DNA of 21,539 nucleotides from Nitrospinota bacterium (GTDB taxonomy: Bacteria; Nitrospinota; Nitrospinia; JACRGO01): contig JACRGO010000103.1 of assembly GCA_016212295.1 (NCBI GenBank), forward strand, positions 1-21,539, given 5' to 3'. Made by a program: the position numbers and the translations under genes. The notes below the pieces were generated by a model. The model ran no database searches. It was given only the letters and a program-made list of their open reading frames with translations, and had not been told where the DNA came from. Below are positions 698 to 20,985 of the stretch, piece after piece (the stretch's first letter is position 1; each line of letters begins with the position of its first letter).

Positions 698-1601
698 TCA
701 AGCAAAATCCAGAGGGCTCTTGGCCTCTTTCACTGTTTTGCTCGGCACGCAGTGAGTGTAAATCATGGTGGTTCTCACATCCGAATGCCCGAGCAATTCT
801 TGGATGGCGCGGATATCATAATTGGCCTGAAGCAGATGGGTGGCAAAGGAGTGGCGGAAGGTGTGGGATGTGACGTGTTTCGTGAGTTTCGCCCGGCGGA
901 CGGCCTCGTACAGGGCTTGCTGGACATGTGTGTCATGAAGATGATACCGGCGACGCTCCTTTTTTTCCTCAACAAAAGTCAATGATTGCTGCGGGAAGAA
1001 CCATTGCCATATAAAATCCCTGGCGGCGGAAGGGTATTTTTTTCCAGTTGGCCTTCAAGAAACACGCCCGCAAACCCGGACGCCAAATCCTCATCGTGAA
1101 GTTTCCTTATGGCCTCAAACTGTGCCGTTAACTCCGGCATGATCGACTGTGGAATCGGCACACGCATTCAAAGAGACGAAGCCCGCACCCGTACAAGAGT
1201 TTCACCGCTAGGCCGTAAGGGTGTCCCATATATTTCAAGACGGCGTCTATTTCCTTTCGGGAAAGAACCACAGGGATATATTTCGACTTCTTCGCGCGGG
1301 GAATGTCCTTGTGATCGCCAAAATCCTTTTTTAGAATGTGCCGATACAGAAAGAGCAAGGCATTGAACGCTTGGCTTTGCGTTGACGCGGAAACCTTGCA
1401 ATTCACCGCAAGATAGGTGAGGTAAGCCTTAACATCCGACGCCGGCAGTTCCTCATGGGGCTTGTTTTGCAGATAACTCTGGAATTTGCGGCTCCAATCC
1501 GCGTAAGCCTTCAGCGTCTTTCGCGAATAGTGGCGCATTTTGATCTCCGCCGCAAGATTGTGAATGATTTTATCCCAAGCGGGAGAGCCGGTCCTCTTCA
1601 T
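698..1601 (-). pseudogene. Integron-type tyrosine recombinase (IntI-like), frameshifted and internally deleted
   Basis: The start is ATG at 1601 with an AGGTGGAG ribosome-binding site just upstream. The first part encodes the SAM-like N-terminal domain (HYSRKTLKAYADWSRKF) through the first catalytic Arg (GCGLRLFEC). About 1160-1170 the frame changes, and roughly 25-30 residues expected in this family are missing, including the beta-hairpin that carries the catalytic Lys. The next part has the IntI-specific insert (reads as [18 protein letters not shown]), but a run of 7 A's near 1034-1040 (minus strand) puts it out of frame with what follows; 8 would restore it. The last part (698-982) keeps [17 protein letters not shown] and IYTH. 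The product cannot be active as it stands. The insert argues for an integron integrase rather than XerC/D. No convincing attC array is visible nearby. Divergent from the methyltransferase relic at 1682. Confidence 0.85.
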
Positions 1602-1681
1602 GCATCTCCACCTATTATAGCGGCTTACCGACTTCTGCTCTGATACACTGAACGGCTGTTGTTTCTCCGAAAGAGGGGGAC

Positions 1682-2833
1682 ATGCCGGTGGTATCGCCTT
1701 GGACGGAGAATACGAAGAAATTTGCCTTTCTCGATATAGATATTGACTCAGAGACTCAATCCGCCGATTCTGCCGAGCATCAAGATGCTTTAAACAAAAT
1801 TGAAACCCTTGACCGCAAGCTATCCCAACACTTCCACCGCAAGCTAAAAGTTCAACCAACGCTGACGCGCCAACTTGTCAGTTTTCAGGCCAGTAAATAG
1901 AGGCATACATACCGTTGGTATAAGTTTAAAGAGGCTTTTTCAGCATCTCTTATTGAATCTTTGTTGACAAATAACGGAATTATATCGGGCAAGGTGCTTG
2001 ATCCATTTGCTGGAAGCGGCACGGCCTTGTTTGCCGCTAATGAGGCTGGAATAGATGCAGACGGCATTGAACTGCTTCCTATAGGCCAACAGATAATTCT
2101 TGCCAGAAGGTGCCTGGAAAGAGAGTCTTCGGCAAAGGATTTTGCCGCCCTGAAGAAGTGCGTTAAAGAACGGCCCTGGCATCAAGCCGAGACAAAGGCA
2201 ATTCTTCTAAAATTGCGCATCACAGACGGCGCCTACCCGCAGGAGACGCTTGAATCCATAGAGCGTTATATGGGGGCCTGACAACGTGAGAATGAGCGTG
2301 TCCAGCCGGTATTGCGATTTGCCTTGTTGCGCGTGTTGGATTCAATCAGCTTTACACGGAAGGACGGCCAGTATCTGCGATGGGATTACCGTTCAGGCCG
2401 CCGACAAGGAATTAAACCTTTCGATAAAGGGGAAATCCTTGCTTTCGATAGGGCTATCTGTGCCAAAATAGAAGAAATTTGCCATGACATACAAGCTGGA
2501 AAAGACTCTGGCGATTTGTTTCCCACAAAGACCTTGCAGGGCAATATCCATTTATTTAAAGGTTCTTGCCTCGATATAATGCCGACGTTGCCGGATAACT
2601 CATACAATGCCGTTGTGACATCTCCCCCTTGTTGCAATCGTTACGACTACACCAGAACCTATGCGTTGGAGCTGGCGTTGCTTGGAGTGGGAGAGCAGGA
2701 GACAAGTGGATTGCGGCAGGAGATGTTAAGCTGCACGGTTGAAAACAGAGCCAAATATCTATTACAGACCAATCCAACCTTCGCCATTCTTCCCGCCTTT
2801 AGTGGACAGCATGATTTTTGCCTTGGTTATTAA
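1682..2833 (+). pseudogene. DNA methyltransferase (adenine-N6/cytosine-N4 type) with in-frame stops
   Basis: A single reading frame runs for 384 codons but is interrupted by TAG (1898-1900, codon 73) and TGA (2279-2281, codon 200). Homology-like sequence continues in the same frame across both. Features in order: an N-terminal segment with HFHRKLKVQPTL; YRWYKFKEAFSASLIE; the S-adenosylmethionine motif VLDPFAGSGTALF (near codon 105); [18 protein letters not shown]; and the catalytic region [18 protein letters not shown]. The catalytic motif is SPPC (Cys at codon 317) where active enzymes have SPPY. The C-terminal third is lost: family-like sequence ends around 2770, and the frame stops just before the right 81-bp repeat. 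ATG 1682 follows AGAGGGGG. It was probably once part of a restriction-modification system or a solitary methylase. No restriction gene is next to it. Confidence 0.85.
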
Positions 2834-5687: not shown

Positions 5688-5865
5688 ATTTCAGATTTCA
5701 GATTTGAGATTTGAGATTTCAGATTTAAAATCTCAAATCCGCCTTTCGTTTATGCCATCCTGAACTGAACTTGTTTCAGGATTTAATACGCGTCGATAGC
5801 TACAATTGTTTTTATTTTCAATTTTAAATCCCAAATCCCAAATCTGAAATCTGAAATCTGAAATT
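5688..5865. repeat. Two opposed heptamer arrays around a small palindrome
   Basis: 5688-5740 is an array of TTTCAGA/TTTGAGA units. 5825-5865 is the opposite orientation, AAATCTG/AAATCCC units. The two could pair as a long stem. Between them lies a small palindrome, ATCCTGAA (5757-5764)/TTTCAGGAT (5774-5782). The same heptamers recur at 10869-10912 and 11668-11737. There are no unique spacers, so it is not CRISPR. Confidence 0.7.
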
Positions 5866-11559: not shown

Positions 11560-11667
11560 CAATAGCCAAATAACAAGCATCAAATAACAAATAAGCTCCA
11601 AAAATAAAATACCATGCAACACCTTGCGCTGTTGGAATTTTGATTTTAGCGGTTAGCTTCCAGGACT

Positions 11668-11737
11668 TTAAAATCTTAAATCTTAAATCTTAAATCTCAA
11701 ATCTCAAATCTGAGATCTCAAATCTGAAATCCCAAAT
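11668..11737. repeat. Heptamer (AAATCTT/AAATCTC/AAATCTG) array
   Basis: About ten tandem 7-bp units with drifting last bases lie between the convergent ppa and oadA genes, ending 8 bp before the oadA stop codon. No spacers, no CRISPR character. Confidence 0.75.
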
Positions 11738-11745
11738 ATCCTTGC

Positions 11746-13678: not shown

Positions 13679-14062
13679 TTATTTAGTCTTTTGGAGATTA
13701 ATGATTTTTGTCTTTATGCCGCTGTAAAGATCAAAATGATCATCTGTCGTATAGATTTCCTTGCAGCCAGTTTCAAGAAGGCTGCTCAGGATAAGCGAGT
13801 CCAACCCTGGGATTTTGAGGTCATGCGAAAGGTGCCCGGCTTTTAATGCTATTTCAGGAGAGATTGAAACCAACGCTGTGGCGATCTTTATATCTTCAAT
13901 GATTTTGGGCCACTTATTGAAGTGTCCTTGCAATAGTTTTTTTTGTAATTCATATAGAACAATAGTGGAAGTTACTATTTCTTGTTCCTTCCAAGCCTTT
14001 ACCGCCAAGGGATGCTCATCTTCAAGGGCAAAGAAAAAGCCTGTATCAACGCCTGTCAGCAT
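13679..14062 (-). CDS. vapC: PIN-domain toxin (VapC-like)
   Basis: A 127-residue PIN-fold ribonuclease. Toxins of this family cleave RNA when not neutralised by their antitoxin. The acidic residues expected at the metal site are visible: D6 in LTGVDTGFFF, E38 in IVLYELQ, D88 in IPGLDSLIL and D107/D108 in YTTDDHFD. All four are intact, so it could be active. The ATG at 14062 lies inside the end of the antitoxin gene (17-nt overlap), the usual antitoxin-then-toxin order with translational coupling. It is more AT-rich than the core genes around it, which fits an acquired accessory gene. The exact target cannot be told. Confidence 0.85.
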   Translation of the reverse strand: MLTGVDTGFFFALEDEHPLAVKAWKEQEIVTSTIVLYELQKKLLQGHFNKWPKIIEDIKIATALVSISPEIALKAGHLSHDLKIPGLDSLILSSLLETGCKEIYTTDDHFDLYSGIKTKIINLQKTK

Positions 14063-14294
14063 CAGCGCCGGTCCTTTCCTTGTGAAGTCCTTCCCATTTT
14101 TTAAGGCCGCCTAACGGCCTTGACTTAGAGAGGGTGCTCAAGACACGTTTCTTGGCCGCCTTTTTAGCATCGCGAGAAAGATACTGCTCCACTGCTTCAC
14201 GAATTATACTGGATACGGGCTTATGCGATGCCTTTGACTTGGCCTTGATGGTATCCAACGTGCTCTGATCCAAATAAAAACTTACTCCAGGCAT
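14046..14294 (-). CDS. Ribbon-helix-helix antitoxin partner of the PIN toxin
   Basis: About 82 residues. The N-terminus (PGVSFYLDQSTLDTIKAKSK, then SSIIREAVEQYL) has the beta-strand, helix, helix pattern of ribbon-helix-helix DNA-binding proteins. The basic, poorly conserved C-terminus (from about residue 50) would wrap the toxin. I choose ATG 14294, which has GGAG 6 nt upstream. Another in-frame ATG at 14306 would add four residues and contains that GGAG within its own codons. It overlaps the toxin start. Such antitoxins normally repress their own promoter, which should lie at about 14300-14340, between this gene and the divergent antitoxin relic; the operator is not identifiable by eye. Confidence 0.8.
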   Translation of the reverse strand: MPGVSFYLDQSTLDTIKAKSKASHKPVSSIIREAVEQYLSRDAKKAAKKRVLSTLSKSRPLGGLKKWEGLHKERTGADADRR

Positions 14295-14364
14295 TTTATA
14301 CTCCATGACGTTTCAATTATGTTGGAATCGTAACATAGTTGTTTTTTTTGCGCAATATATTTTT

Positions 14365-14760: not shown

Positions 14761-16095
14761 TTACTCAATTCGTGTAATGACGTAGAACTTGCGCTCTTTA
14801 CCTTCCCCTTTTTCATAAGCTTTTATCTCCTTTAAAGATTCAGACAAGATCATTAAGACATCCACACCATTATTGCCACCACCAAGTATGCTACTCCTAT
14901 TAAATGGTTCGCCAACTTTATCCCTCTTCATGGTGCATATGATGGTTTTTCCACGGACATGGCCTTCGTACCTTATTTTATATTGCGTTGTTTTTGACTG
15001 CCCTATTGATGGAGCTGTTTTATGCGCATAATAGCCCAGTAACCCTAACAGTCCGGCGTCTGGTTGCCCATAAGTCCCTTCTGCCTCAAACCTATTGCCC
15101 TTTATTATTATATTTAACTCACAGTCAGGCCCGCGCCACCGTCCAGTGTGATCGCTTTGATCTTCTTGCAGTAAAGCATGTCCAAAATTTTTATAGAACT
15201 CGCTTAAAGGCTTGGCATTATCCACAATTTGTTTCTTCTTCTTTTCCTCCTCTTCAGGTGCGTCCTTGATTCTTGAAAGTGTATGATTTATGTTTGTGTG
15301 ATAATTCTTGATCTTTAACGCGCGATTGCATATTTCTTCAGCCTCTTTCAGGAAGCCTGCCTTTATTAACTTTTGCGCTAGGTTGCTCATTGCAAGAGTT
15401 TCGTCAAGCTCTTCTGCTTTTTTATAAGCATTAACTGAGCTGTTAGAAAGATCAAAATGGTCGAACTCAACACCAATATTATTCCATGTGCCGGACCCCC
15501 GCTCTCCATCTGGAATCTTTAGGTAATGAAATAATGAGAGATCATCATGGCCCGCCTGCGAATAGTTGTAGGCAAGGGTAAATCTACATTCAGAGTCTTC
15601 AGGTCTGAGTTGTAATGGTAGCTCAGTGAACCCGAACAATAAGTCTTTGTTATCCTCCGTTTCCGCTAATTCGCGGAACGTTTTAATCAAGCGGGCTTCG
15701 CCATCTTCTGCTAGAATTTTAATGCCCTTCATCTTTGTAATGATTGAAATCACCTTGTCCTTTCGTCCTGCTATATTGAAGGAAAGGACAGCGTCAGAAT
15801 ACATCGTGAATTTATTATTGACATCATCCGCCGTTTCCGCGGCAACTTCAAATTGTTGAGCAGCTTTTTCGTGGTCATCGTATTGTTTATATCCCATTGC
15901 TAAATATTTCATGATCTCAGAATTCTTAGGGTGAGACTTTGCAATCTCCTCTAATTTACGCAGTTCACCCCCTTTTGTGAGTAATATTCTAAGGTATTCC
16001 TGGCAGGCCTCCCAGCTTGACCTGTTTTCTGGCTTCTTCCCATCTTCAGAATTGATAAGCATTATTAATGCGTTGTGCGCCTTCCTCATTGTCAT
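14761..16095 (-). CDS. TPR protein with novel C-terminal beta-rich domain, partner of the TIR gene
   Basis: Up to 444 residues. Residues about 43-275 are helical repeats of TPR type (EIMKYLAMGYKQYDDHEKAA, TWNNIGVEFDHF then VNAYKKAEELDETLAMSNLA, KAGFLKEAEEICNRALKI). A charged linker (279-290) follows. The C-terminal about 145 residues appear beta-rich, with a GRWRGPDCEL motif, alternating strands (KIRYEGHVRGKTIICTMKRD) and a Gly-rich turn SILGGGNNGVD; I do not recognise this domain, though a calycin-like barrel is possible. The annotated ATG overlaps the TIR gene by 50 nt in another frame. The first ~15 residues look like out-of-frame TIR tail, and ATG 16062 is an alternative start. In relatives this may be one TIR-TPR protein. 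The gene is AT-rich compared with core genes. Confidence 0.75.
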   Translation of the reverse strand: MTMRKAHNALIMLINSEDGKKPENRSSWEACQEYLRILLTKGGELRKLEEIAKSHPKNSEIMKYLAMGYKQYDDHEKAAQQFEVAAETADDVNNKFTMYSDAVLSFNIAGRKDKVISIITKMKGIKILAEDGEARLIKTFRELAETEDNKDLLFGFTELPLQLRPEDSECRFTLAYNYSQAGHDDLSLFHYLKIPDGERGSGTWNNIGVEFDHFDLSNSSVNAYKKAEELDETLAMSNLAQKLIKAGFLKEAEEICNRALKIKNYHTNINHTLSRIKDAPEEEEKKKKQIVDNAKPLSEFYKNFGHALLQEDQSDHTGRWRGPDCELNIIIKGNRFEAEGTYGQPDAGLLGLLGYYAHKTAPSIGQSKTTQYKIRYEGHVRGKTIICTMKRDKVGEPFNRSSILGGGNNGVDVLMILSESLKEIKAYEKGEGKERKFYVITRIE

Positions 16096-16735
16096 TTTTA
16101 ATCATTCTCATTAAAGCAAGCTTATATCTCTTTATGTCCCAATCAGCTTTGGGCTCTAACATCTCTTCTGTTTGCTCCTTTATCTCTGTTTTTTCTTCAG
16201 AAAGAACACGGATTTCTGTTTCTGTGGCCGATGTAGGTTTAGCTTTAGGAAAAAGTGATTGAATCATATCAAGAATTTTGCAGAACGATTTTTCAGGAGC
16301 TTTTCGTTCAAAAGTGATGTACTCTATATTGCCTTGTAATCCCCCAGGTGGACGAATGCCTTTTTCTACCAAAAGGATAAGGTCCATACGGCGGCCAATA
16401 GCAAGACCAATTTCCTGTATGATCCAATCAGACGTCTTCGAGTAAAAATTATTAGCCTCCGCTTTGAAAATCTTTTTTTTCAGACGGCATTTCCTAAGCT
16501 TGTCTGGTAGAATTGCGGCCTCTTTGTTAGTACAAATGCCAATAAATAGGTTCTTGTCCTCAATAAGACGTAAGACTTTTTCTGCCAGTTCATTAGGCTC
16601 AGCATCTTTAGCATGTTCCCAACTGAACCCAATATTCATTTTCTTCACTTTATCGAAGAACTCCAGAAATGCTCTAACCACTGCGTCGTCATCTTCCGTG
16701 AAGCTATGGCCTACAAATGCTTTTAGTTGATTCAT
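16046..16735 (-). CDS. TIR-domain protein (putative NAD-cleaving immune effector)
   Basis: 229 residues. Residues 4-150 resemble a TIR domain: QLKAFVGHSFTEDDDAVV (strand A and box-1-like), LIEDKNLFIGICTNKEA, then KTSDWIIQEIGLAIGRRMDL, where W104-x3-E108 lines up with the catalytic-Glu helix of SARM1-type TIR NADases, and ILLVEKGIRPPGGLQGN, IEYITFER. Residues 150-229 are a charged tail ending in a helix (DWDIKRYKLALMRMIK). The ATG has an exceptionally strong ribosome-binding site, GGGGGGAGGAG. Bacterial TIR domains commonly degrade or cyclise NAD during antiphage defence; that role here is inference. The downstream TPR gene overlaps it by 50 nt and could be its sensor. An hsdS relic lies 18 bp upstream on the same strand. 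Confidence 0.75.
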   Translation of the reverse strand: MNQLKAFVGHSFTEDDDAVVRAFLEFFDKVKKMNIGFSWEHAKDAEPNELAEKVLRLIEDKNLFIGICTNKEAAILPDKLRKCRLKKKIFKAEANNFYSKTSDWIIQEIGLAIGRRMDLILLVEKGIRPPGGLQGNIEYITFERKAPEKSFCKILDMIQSLFPKAKPTSATETEIRVLSEEKTEIKEQTEEMLEPKADWDIKRYKLALMRMIKNDNEEGAQRINNAYQF

Positions 16736-16753: not shown

Positions 16754-16981
16754 TCAAATTCTCTTAATGTGATAAAGAGTAATCCTTATACCAAATGAAG
16801 CATTCAGAGAAAATATTTTAAAGATCGACTGCCGCAGGTGTTCCAGAATTTTTGAAATTTGTTTTGATGTTCGTTTCGATTTCTTCAGCGGCTGCGAGAC
16901 AGCTTTCAATGTTTTGCTAATAATTTTTTGTTGTTCTGCATGAAGAGGCAGAGGAATAGAGAGTGCTGAGGCTTTGTTCCA
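16754..16981 (-). pseudogene. Type I restriction specificity subunit (HsdS) 3' relic
   Basis: One open frame (no start codon) reads ALSIPLPLHAEQQKIISK at its beginning and EHLRQSIFKIFSL near its end. A second frame in between gives NIESCLAAAEEIETNIKTN, stopping at 16818. Alternating frames reconstruct the familiar HsdS end: 'IPLP..EQQ.I...IE..L...EEIE.NI...LK..E.LRQSIL'. At least two frameshifts have occurred. Upstream (to about 17069, minus) other short frames are open but not recognisable. It suggests that a type I restriction-modification system once lay here. Confidence 0.6.
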
Positions 16982-17435
16982 TTAACCTTGAGTCTATTAG
17001 GTCGGTTTTTCCTGTTGTTTCGGGTTGAGGTTTGCTTTCTCTGTTTGCCGCCTTATTTAGATGGCGGCGTCAAAATATTTCAACCGTGATGAAAATGGAA
17101 AGAAATTTAGTGATTTTATAAGCGTTCCAGGAATTTGCCCAAAGATTAGCAGAACAGCGTATTGAAGTCAAAAGATTTCAGCGTTTTTTGCTTCAACAAT
17201 TTTTTTATAACAACGCTGAACTTATACGCTAGGACCGTGAAATAAGAAGAATTTTGTTGTGGATGCCAGCGTAGCCAATAAATAGCGCCAGAACGGAAAT
17301 CATGTTTTTTGGTTTTATTGGTTCGTAGTTCCGCCTTCAGGCGGCTTCTTTTTCTTTTAAAAATAAAAGGCCAGCCTGAAGGCGGAACTATGAACCTCGA
17401 TCCAAATATTTTTGGCTGTGGTTTTCTTTCAGGTA
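16982..17435. other. Gene debris between the hsdS relic and clpB
   Basis: No intact gene. From 17125 (plus strand) a frame of 35 codons reads like protein (FAQRLAEQRIEVKRFQRFLL) to a TAG at 17230, and continues past it (DREIRRILLWMPA) to a second TAG at 17272. It may be the end of a decayed gene, which I do not recognise with confidence. A short ATG frame at 17061-17168 precedes it out of frame. A long inverted repeat lies at 17321-17395. Confidence 0.4.
17321..17395. repeat. 22-bp inverted repeat downstream of clpB
   Basis: 17321-17342 and 17374-17395 are inverted copies with one mismatch (core AGTTCCGCCTTCAGGC), separated by 31 nt of A/T-rich sequence. Its position 41 bp past the clpB stop would allow a bidirectional stop for transcription, but no clean T-tract follows the stem. 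It may equally be a dispersed mobile repeat. Confidence 0.6.
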
Positions 17436-20477: not shown

Positions 20478-20720
20478 ATGAGTCCTTCAATTTTCAGAGA
20501 GAAAGGCTGTAGATTTTATTTTCTTTCAAACGAAGAGGAGCGAATCCATATCCATGTTACATGCGAAAATGGAGAAGCTAAGTTCTGGCTTGAACCTATA
20601 GTATCGTTAGCCGTATATCATGGGTTGAATCAAAGAAAATTGAACGAAATTCAAAAAATTGTAGGGGAACATAAAAATGAAATCACTAAAGCATGGCAAA
20701 AACATTTTAGTCAGCGTTGA
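20478..20720 (+). CDS. DUF4160 family protein
   Basis: An 80-residue protein with the family signature: PSIFREKGCRFYFLSNEEER, the conserved HIHV (Ile-His-Ile-His-Val near residue 24), then GEAKFWLEP and a helical C-terminus ending EITKAWQKHF. DUF4160 proteins are small and frequently encoded next to DUF2442 proteins, as here, in what has been proposed to be a toxin-antitoxin-like pair; the biochemical role is not established. The next gene starts 44 nt before this one ends. No Shine-Dalgarno sequence stands out before ATG 20478. Codon use is AT-rich compared with clpB. Confidence 0.85.
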   Translation: MSPSIFREKGCRFYFLSNEEERIHIHVTCENGEAKFWLEPIVSLAVYHGLNQRKLNEIQKIVGEHKNEITKAWQKHFSQR

Positions 20721-20985
20721 AAATATAACACCTTTTGGCATATGGCTGTATGTAAGAGAAAAAGAATATTTTCTGTGCTATAAAGATTACCCATACTTTA
20801 GAGAGCAAACAATAAAATCCATACAAAATGTCCAACTGCTCCATGGCTATCATTTATACTGGCCTGATTTGGATGTTGATTTGGAGATTGATAATCTCGA
20901 AAACCCTGAAAAATATACCCTGCAATTTAAAACAAATACACATCTAACAAAAAAACCCAACGGGCGGGCTGTTGCCCGCCGCTGA
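20677..20985 (+). CDS. DUF2442 family protein, partner of DUF4160
   Basis: 102 residues. It has the family layout: ITPFGIWLYVREKEYFLCYK, then PYFREQTIKSIQNVQLL and the diagnostic HGYHLYWPDLDVDLEIDNLE followed by PEKY. AGGGGAAC lies about 6 nt before ATG 20677, inside the end of the DUF4160 gene, so the two are translationally coupled. The last ~15 residues (TKKPNGRAVARR) are translated from a hairpin-rich GC stretch and are probably not conserved. Some DUF2442 proteins are predicted DNA-binding antitoxin-like partners; function here is inferred only from the pairing. Confidence 0.85.
   Translation: MKSLKHGKNILVSVENITPFGIWLYVREKEYFLCYKDYPYFREQTIKSIQNVQLLHGYHLYWPDLDVDLEIDNLENPEKYTLQFKTNTHLTKKPNGRAVARR

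Follow-up and report, generated by a model that had tools for sequence, protein, structure and literature searches.

The window, i.e., the whole stretch of 21,539 nucleotides that was analysed (contig C50 of a Nitrospinota genome of 3.7 Mb that is 90.5% complete), carries on its minus strand two flagged open reading frames (ORFs), 16046-16735 (229 aa) and 14761-16095 (444 aa), which overlap by 50 nt. The first-pass annotation had placed both ORFs at these positions, as the ORF listing does, and had taken them for a TIR effector gene and a separate partner gene. When the protein of the nearest relative (L123) was aligned to the window using tblastn, its residues 1-228 matched 16735-16055 with 67% identity and its residues 229-657 matched 16056-14764, in a second frame, with 51% identity. 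A second homologue (L121) was also continuous across both frames, with residue 228 at 16055 and residue 229 at 16056. As consecutive residues fall in two frames, the pair is, judged from the sequence, one gene interrupted by a frameshift at 16055..16056 (minus strand), due either to a real mutation or to an indel or assembly error in the contig. The first distant relative, from a genome of the same class as the window genome (G007, L003), is a single 647-residue ORF spanning both window proteins, and all but a few of the contig-complete copies of the family form one ORF of about 640-670 aa. These single-ORF homologues and the cross-frame alignments demonstrate a single-chain architecture and rule out a two-gene operon; the separate partner gene was dropped, and the annotation, in which a frameshifted single gene had been read as a two-gene system, was corrected.

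The 5' half of the gene (16046..16735, minus strand) encodes the TIR domain (residues 1 to ~163) and a linker, and ends in an off-frame run to a premature stop. The 3' half (14761..16095, minus strand) encodes a TPR superhelix, which extends to about 15211, and then a C-terminal beta domain; it is unlikely that the ATG at 16095 is a native start. Both ORFs are stop-free apart from the frameshift, and a lone break over about 655 codons suggests that the frameshift is recent or a sequence error.

Directly upstream of the TIR segment lies the decayed C-terminal tail of an hsdS gene (IPLPLHAEQQKII ... LRQSIFK; 16757..16981, minus strand), spread over more than one frame. An hsdS relic had been recognised in the first pass, and a profile of the hsdS C terminus, built from the neighbours of the homologues, found it again: of 630 six-frame segments of the window, the best was 16757-16981 on the minus strand (E 3.3e-4), and a second hsdS piece in another frame was weak (E 0.19). 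The locus lies in a low-GC stretch (39-43% vs 50-57% on the flanks). Since the tail occupies the position of an intact hsdS in seven homologous loci, the window locus is most likely what is left of the same hsd-TIR-TPR operon, as far as position and sequence similarity indicate. Given the frameshift and the loss of the hsd genes save this tail, the gene in the window is probably broken and defunct, without function as a full protein.

The toxin-antitoxin genes that had been reported nearby were found as a PIN toxin with an RHH antitoxin (13679-14306, minus strand), and a DUF4160 and DUF2442 pair resembling a type II toxin-antitoxin unit (DhiT-like) lies at 20478-20985 on the plus strand. A tyrosine recombinase (698-1859, minus strand) and an N6/N4 DNA methylase (1961-2833, plus strand) each extend over at least two ORFs and are apparently decayed. 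Short interspersed repeats of two types (~84 and ~70 bp; 11565-11740, 5688-5731 and 5814-5864) are REP/MITE-like and have more than 40 matches in the genome. A CCGCCTTCAGGCGG hairpin (17331-17344), also repeat-like, sits downstream of clpB within a longer inverted repeat.

Fold and domain order of the TIR-TPR protein

The window TIR protein had no curated match in Pfam, NCBIfam or PADLOC, and a HMMER search against solved structures gave no TIR match by sequence. Structure prediction, which had been named as a check of the TIR fold, supported it. The AF2 model (pLDDT 84) was best matched in VIA-align by the SfSTING TIR (7un8; Z 14.6, 126 aligned, 2.8 Å), with further matches to DNPH1 (Z up to 13.6), MilB (~12), ThsB (6lhy; 12.0) and SPARTA TIRs (~12), and Foldseek matched it to the SARM1 TIR and nucleoside 2-deoxyribosyltransferase. 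By profile, 13 of the 21 family TIRs weakly matched Pfam CAP12-PCTIR_TIR (PF10137; best E 1.2e-4). The window TIR aligned to positions 2-113 of the 119 in this profile (E 0.051), its 14 bits falling below the curated cut-off of 24.7, and a divergent member (L124) matched TIR_2 over the full domain (E 1.2e-5) with 26.3 bits vs a cut-off of 28. By these scores the window domain is a divergent TIR and a curated member of neither PF10137 nor TIR_2.

The Trp-x3-Glu helix described in the first pass withstood comparison, as none of the 21 aligned TIR homologues departs from either W104 or E108. In the model, the motif (W104-I-I-Q-E108; 16412..16426, minus strand) belongs to helix 103-114, i.e., helix C, on which the catalytic glutamate of characterised TIRs sits (PMC9402430); from the alignment and from its position read from the model, E108 is the predicted catalytic glutamate. 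The TIR identity of the N-terminal domain is well supported, with a modelled TIR/nucleoside-hydrolase fold. Nucleotide N-glycosidases share this fold and score nearly as well against the model, and so the domain is best described as a putative NADase.

TPR repeats had been noted in the second window ORF, and they were seen both by domain scan, with sub-threshold matches only (Pfam, NCBIfam and PADLOC), and by structure. The AF2 model of an intact Chromatiales homologue (L049; pLDDT 82) begins with an N-terminal domain of alternating alpha and beta elements, followed by TPR helices at 200-521 and strands at 528-647, and the TIR linker leads straight into the TPR helices. Domain scans gave no match to an NTPase domain between TIR and TPR and found neither ABC ATPase nor anticodon-nuclease domains in the protein. 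The top matches listed by Foldseek and VIA for the full-length model were all TPR-type. The C-terminal domain (14764..15210, minus strand; about 145-149 residues), which contains the GRWRGP motif, had been described as ~145 beta-rich residues, and the homologue model agrees, with eight strands and no long helix (528-647). The eight predicted strands are compatible with the calycin-like barrel that the first pass had raised for this domain. In the motif, all homologues share the W and most keep the G; HMMER found no sequence match to this domain in solved structures.

The proposal of an effector plus a sensor thus survives in part: the TIR is joined to a TPR/beta module, in one polypeptide that is broken here and not in two genes. 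No family in PADLOC, NCBIfam or Pfam spans the protein from end to end, PADLOC has no model for the family, and our literature search found no paper on this TIR-TPR-beta architecture or its place in restriction-modification (RM) operons, in agreement with the earlier statement that no named defence system has exactly this architecture.

Family distribution, type I RM operons and module exchange

The homologue search that worked relied on a DNA pattern, composed by hand, that encodes the W-[IV]-[hydrophobic]-x-E-[hydrophobic]-G-x-A-[hydrophobic]-G helix; it gave 21 loci encoding relatives, the G007 copy included. No homologue was matched by single-protein scans of genome contigs and viral contigs, by a two-row profile scan of viral contigs, or by tblastn against plasmids and phages. 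The 21 loci come from Pseudomonadota, Nitrospirota, Nitrospinota, Bacteroidota, Desulfobacterales, Marinimicrobia and Chloroflexi records and from one predicted provirus contig (L026/L087). Intact relatives, present in at least four named phyla, share the order TIR, TPR superhelix and C-terminal eight-strand beta domain. Three other members are broken by frame or stop breaks at sites unlike that of the window (L042, L050/L092 and L043), and one is split over separate contigs (L041/L094 and L095). The family is rare (2/77, 3/369, 4/385, 6/295, 2/345 and 2/296 genomes, seed genomes counted in) and its presence is patchy, at about 1% of genomes.

A slot in type I RM operons recurred among these loci. 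The order hsdR-hsdS-TIR-TPR-hsdM was found in Nitrosomonas (L083), Chromatiales (L079), L121 and L123, three of these four having an extra gene between the TIR-TPR gene and hsdM; the last two loci were sampled from the phylum of a Nitrospiraceae genome (G083) and were found by a profile search blind to RM. The order is hsdR-hsdS-TIR-TPR in L085 and L086 and hsdS-TIR-TPR in L034. In the six loci measured, the spacing from hsdS to the gene was 2, 2, 22, 35 and 41 nt and a 4-nt overlap. In total, hsdS lies directly upstream in 7 of the 26 loci with usable upstream sequence, for which a generously assumed chance of 0.3% per locus gives a binomial probability of about 1e-12 or less, to be taken as a guide only as the loci are related. 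About 19 of the 26 have no hsdS neighbour, and several of them lie amid housekeeping genes, so RM linkage is not a requirement across the family. The defence-island reading of the first-pass annotation is thereby narrowed: a repeated link to type I RM, right after hsdS, stands, and the general form goes too far, with many homologues alone amid housekeeping genes.

Other neighbours were also recorded. The hsdS of the Chromatiales locus (L079:10986-12728) has a GIY-YIG nuclease domain mid-protein; such a domain within hsdS is unusual for type I RM. A small protein encoded between the TIR-TPR gene and hsdM (L121:10229-10945) has an R-x4-H motif that is HEPN-like by eye, and no Pfam match. Fic genes lie downstream of L079, which is RM-linked as well, and of L081, and resolvase/recombinases adjoin L088. 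The provirus TIR-TPR copy is followed after only 5 nt by a gene for an 8xMP membrane protein (PF24838; L087:8426-8965), a possible membrane partner. Neither the 8xMP nor the Fic neighbours are constant across the homologous loci.

The N-terminal module of the family is exchangeable. Searches with the family and TPR/beta profiles, in samples around Gammaproteobacterium, Alphaproteobacterium, Desulfobacterales and Maribacter genomes, recovered four proteins in which a single N-terminal transmembrane helix, assigned by hydropathy only, replaces the TIR (L126/L101, L119, L131 and L132). In a tree of the TPR/beta part these proteins form one side of a branch (support 94/90), and one module exchange therefore suffices. 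All RM-linked rows and the window fall in one 16-row clade (82/82), the RM-linked rows spread over both of its halves. Within the tree the window groups with the RM-embedded L123, not with the other copy of its own phylum, and the Chromatiales and Maribacter copies are sisters with 65% identity, which together indicate horizontal transfer.

Proposed role, alternative readings and known systems

Invariant active-site residues, patchy horizontal distribution, RM linkage and an exchangeable N terminus make a defence role plausible, and at that strength we retain the antiphage role suggested in the first pass. We consider it reasonably probable that the family is a ~655-residue, single-protein abortive-infection NADase that in one subclade is wired to type I RM. 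The TPR/beta module would sense infection and gather the TIR domains, and the clustered TIRs would cleave NAD+ and halt cell growth. In the RM-linked subclade, where the gene is an additional cistron placed between hsdS and hsdM, the protein is probably a second line that is silenced by, or monitors, the Hsd complex, and, by analogy with PrrC, it would probably be released once a phage defeats restriction. A bolder proposal, which we hold to be rather doubtful, is that of a second, unrelated PrrC-like strategy, in which a TIR NADase in the hsdS-hsdM slot, equipped with a TPR/beta sensor, is silenced by Hsd and triggered by phage anti-restriction proteins, the same sensor driving a membrane effector in the sister clade.

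Several other readings were weighed. It is possible, if on the whole unlikely, that the protein is a stand-alone sensor whose TPR/beta part binds a phage structural protein and oligomerises the TIR, the proximity of hsd genes being mere co-localisation. The majority of loci lack hsd neighbours, one homologue is in a predicted provirus contig (L026/L087), and phage portals trigger SpbK (PMC12847820) and Swarozyc (PMC13174449), which are NADases of the TIR or TIR-like sort, all of which would fit; however, the slot right behind hsdS recurs through both halves of the 16-row clade and is more regular than loose clustering. Alternatively, a nucleotide N-glycosidase of the DNPH1/MilB kind could destroy modified nucleotides that let phages escape restriction, as a metabolic backup in RM operons. 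The RM-linked position would suit this, and DNPH1 (Z up to 13.6) and MilB (Z about 12) come near the SfSTING TIR (14.6) for the window model, but sequence profiles favour CAP12-PCTIR_TIR and TIR_2, and the swap with a transmembrane helix fits an effector better than a metabolic enzyme, leaving such a glycosidase very unlikely.

A housekeeping or regulatory scaffold, ancestrally a membrane-anchored TPR/beta protein, in which the TIR would serve protein-protein interaction without a role in immunity, would accord with the membrane-anchored relatives in four lineages and with the TIR copies amid housekeeping genes. The patchy presence (~1%), the cross-phylum near neighbours (Chromatiales/Maribacter, 65%), the invariant catalytic-type residues, the RM operons and the recombinases beside L088 all speak against it, and we assign it little probability. 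For the window itself, the two ORFs might be functional as found, as two cooperating proteins or through programmed frameshifting, given that they are otherwise stop-free and that the second has an ATG close to its start. This is improbable: no intact relative is split there, the splits elsewhere being at other sites or at contig ends, the adjacent hsdS, integrase and methylase are decayed, and inspection by eye revealed no recognisable slippery sequence.

As a candidate single-protein abortive-infection NADase, the family resembles several known systems in part. The TIR-NLR of P4-like satellites (Rousset 2022, PMC9122126) also joins an N-terminal TIR and TPR in one gene, but has a central STAND NTPase, whereas the TIR-TPR family is without it and ends in a beta domain. 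By profile (PF10137) and fold (7un8, Z 14.6), the nearest TIRs are those of the CBASS Cap12 and Pycsar effectors and TIR-STING (PMC9402430); in the family, by contrast, no STING or cyclic-nucleotide-binding domain was recognised, no cyclase gene was noticed nearby, and the sensor would be TPR plus beta domain. The ThsB TIR fold of Thoeris resembles the window TIR (6lhy, Z 12.0), but Thoeris pairs ThsB with ThsA, and no ThsA-like neighbour was noticed by the TIR-TPR gene in the partly annotated neighbourhoods. SpbK (PMC12847820) and Swarozyc/DUF4062 (PMC13174449) are likewise NADases, TIR or TIR-like, in which one protein also carries the sensor; the TPR/beta module would set the family apart from them, and Pfam gave no DUF4062 match in the family at E 0.5-1. 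Our literature search found no description of this kind of TPR plus beta-domain sensor.

The RM-linked clade has its closest working analogue in PrrC, whose gene is embedded in a type I operon and whose toxicity stays latent until phage infection releases it (PMC3874165; PMC3506569). Like PrrC in EcoprrI, the RM-linked members are an extra toxin-like gene inside a type I hsd operon; PrrC combines an ABC-ATPase with an anticodon nuclease, whereas these members are TIR-TPR proteins, and their silencing by Hsd is proposed by analogy. TIR effectors and RM-guarding toxins are each known, but nothing in the literature we searched describes a TIR carried by type I RM operons. Makarova et al. (PMC3506569) list HEPN, Sir2, ParB and REase-fold domains for RM systems and do not use the word TIR. 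If the RM-linked proteins do guard the Hsd complex, the PrrC principle, i.e., restriction with a fallback suicide, would extend to NAD+ depletion, through a sensor with two interchangeable N-terminal modules.
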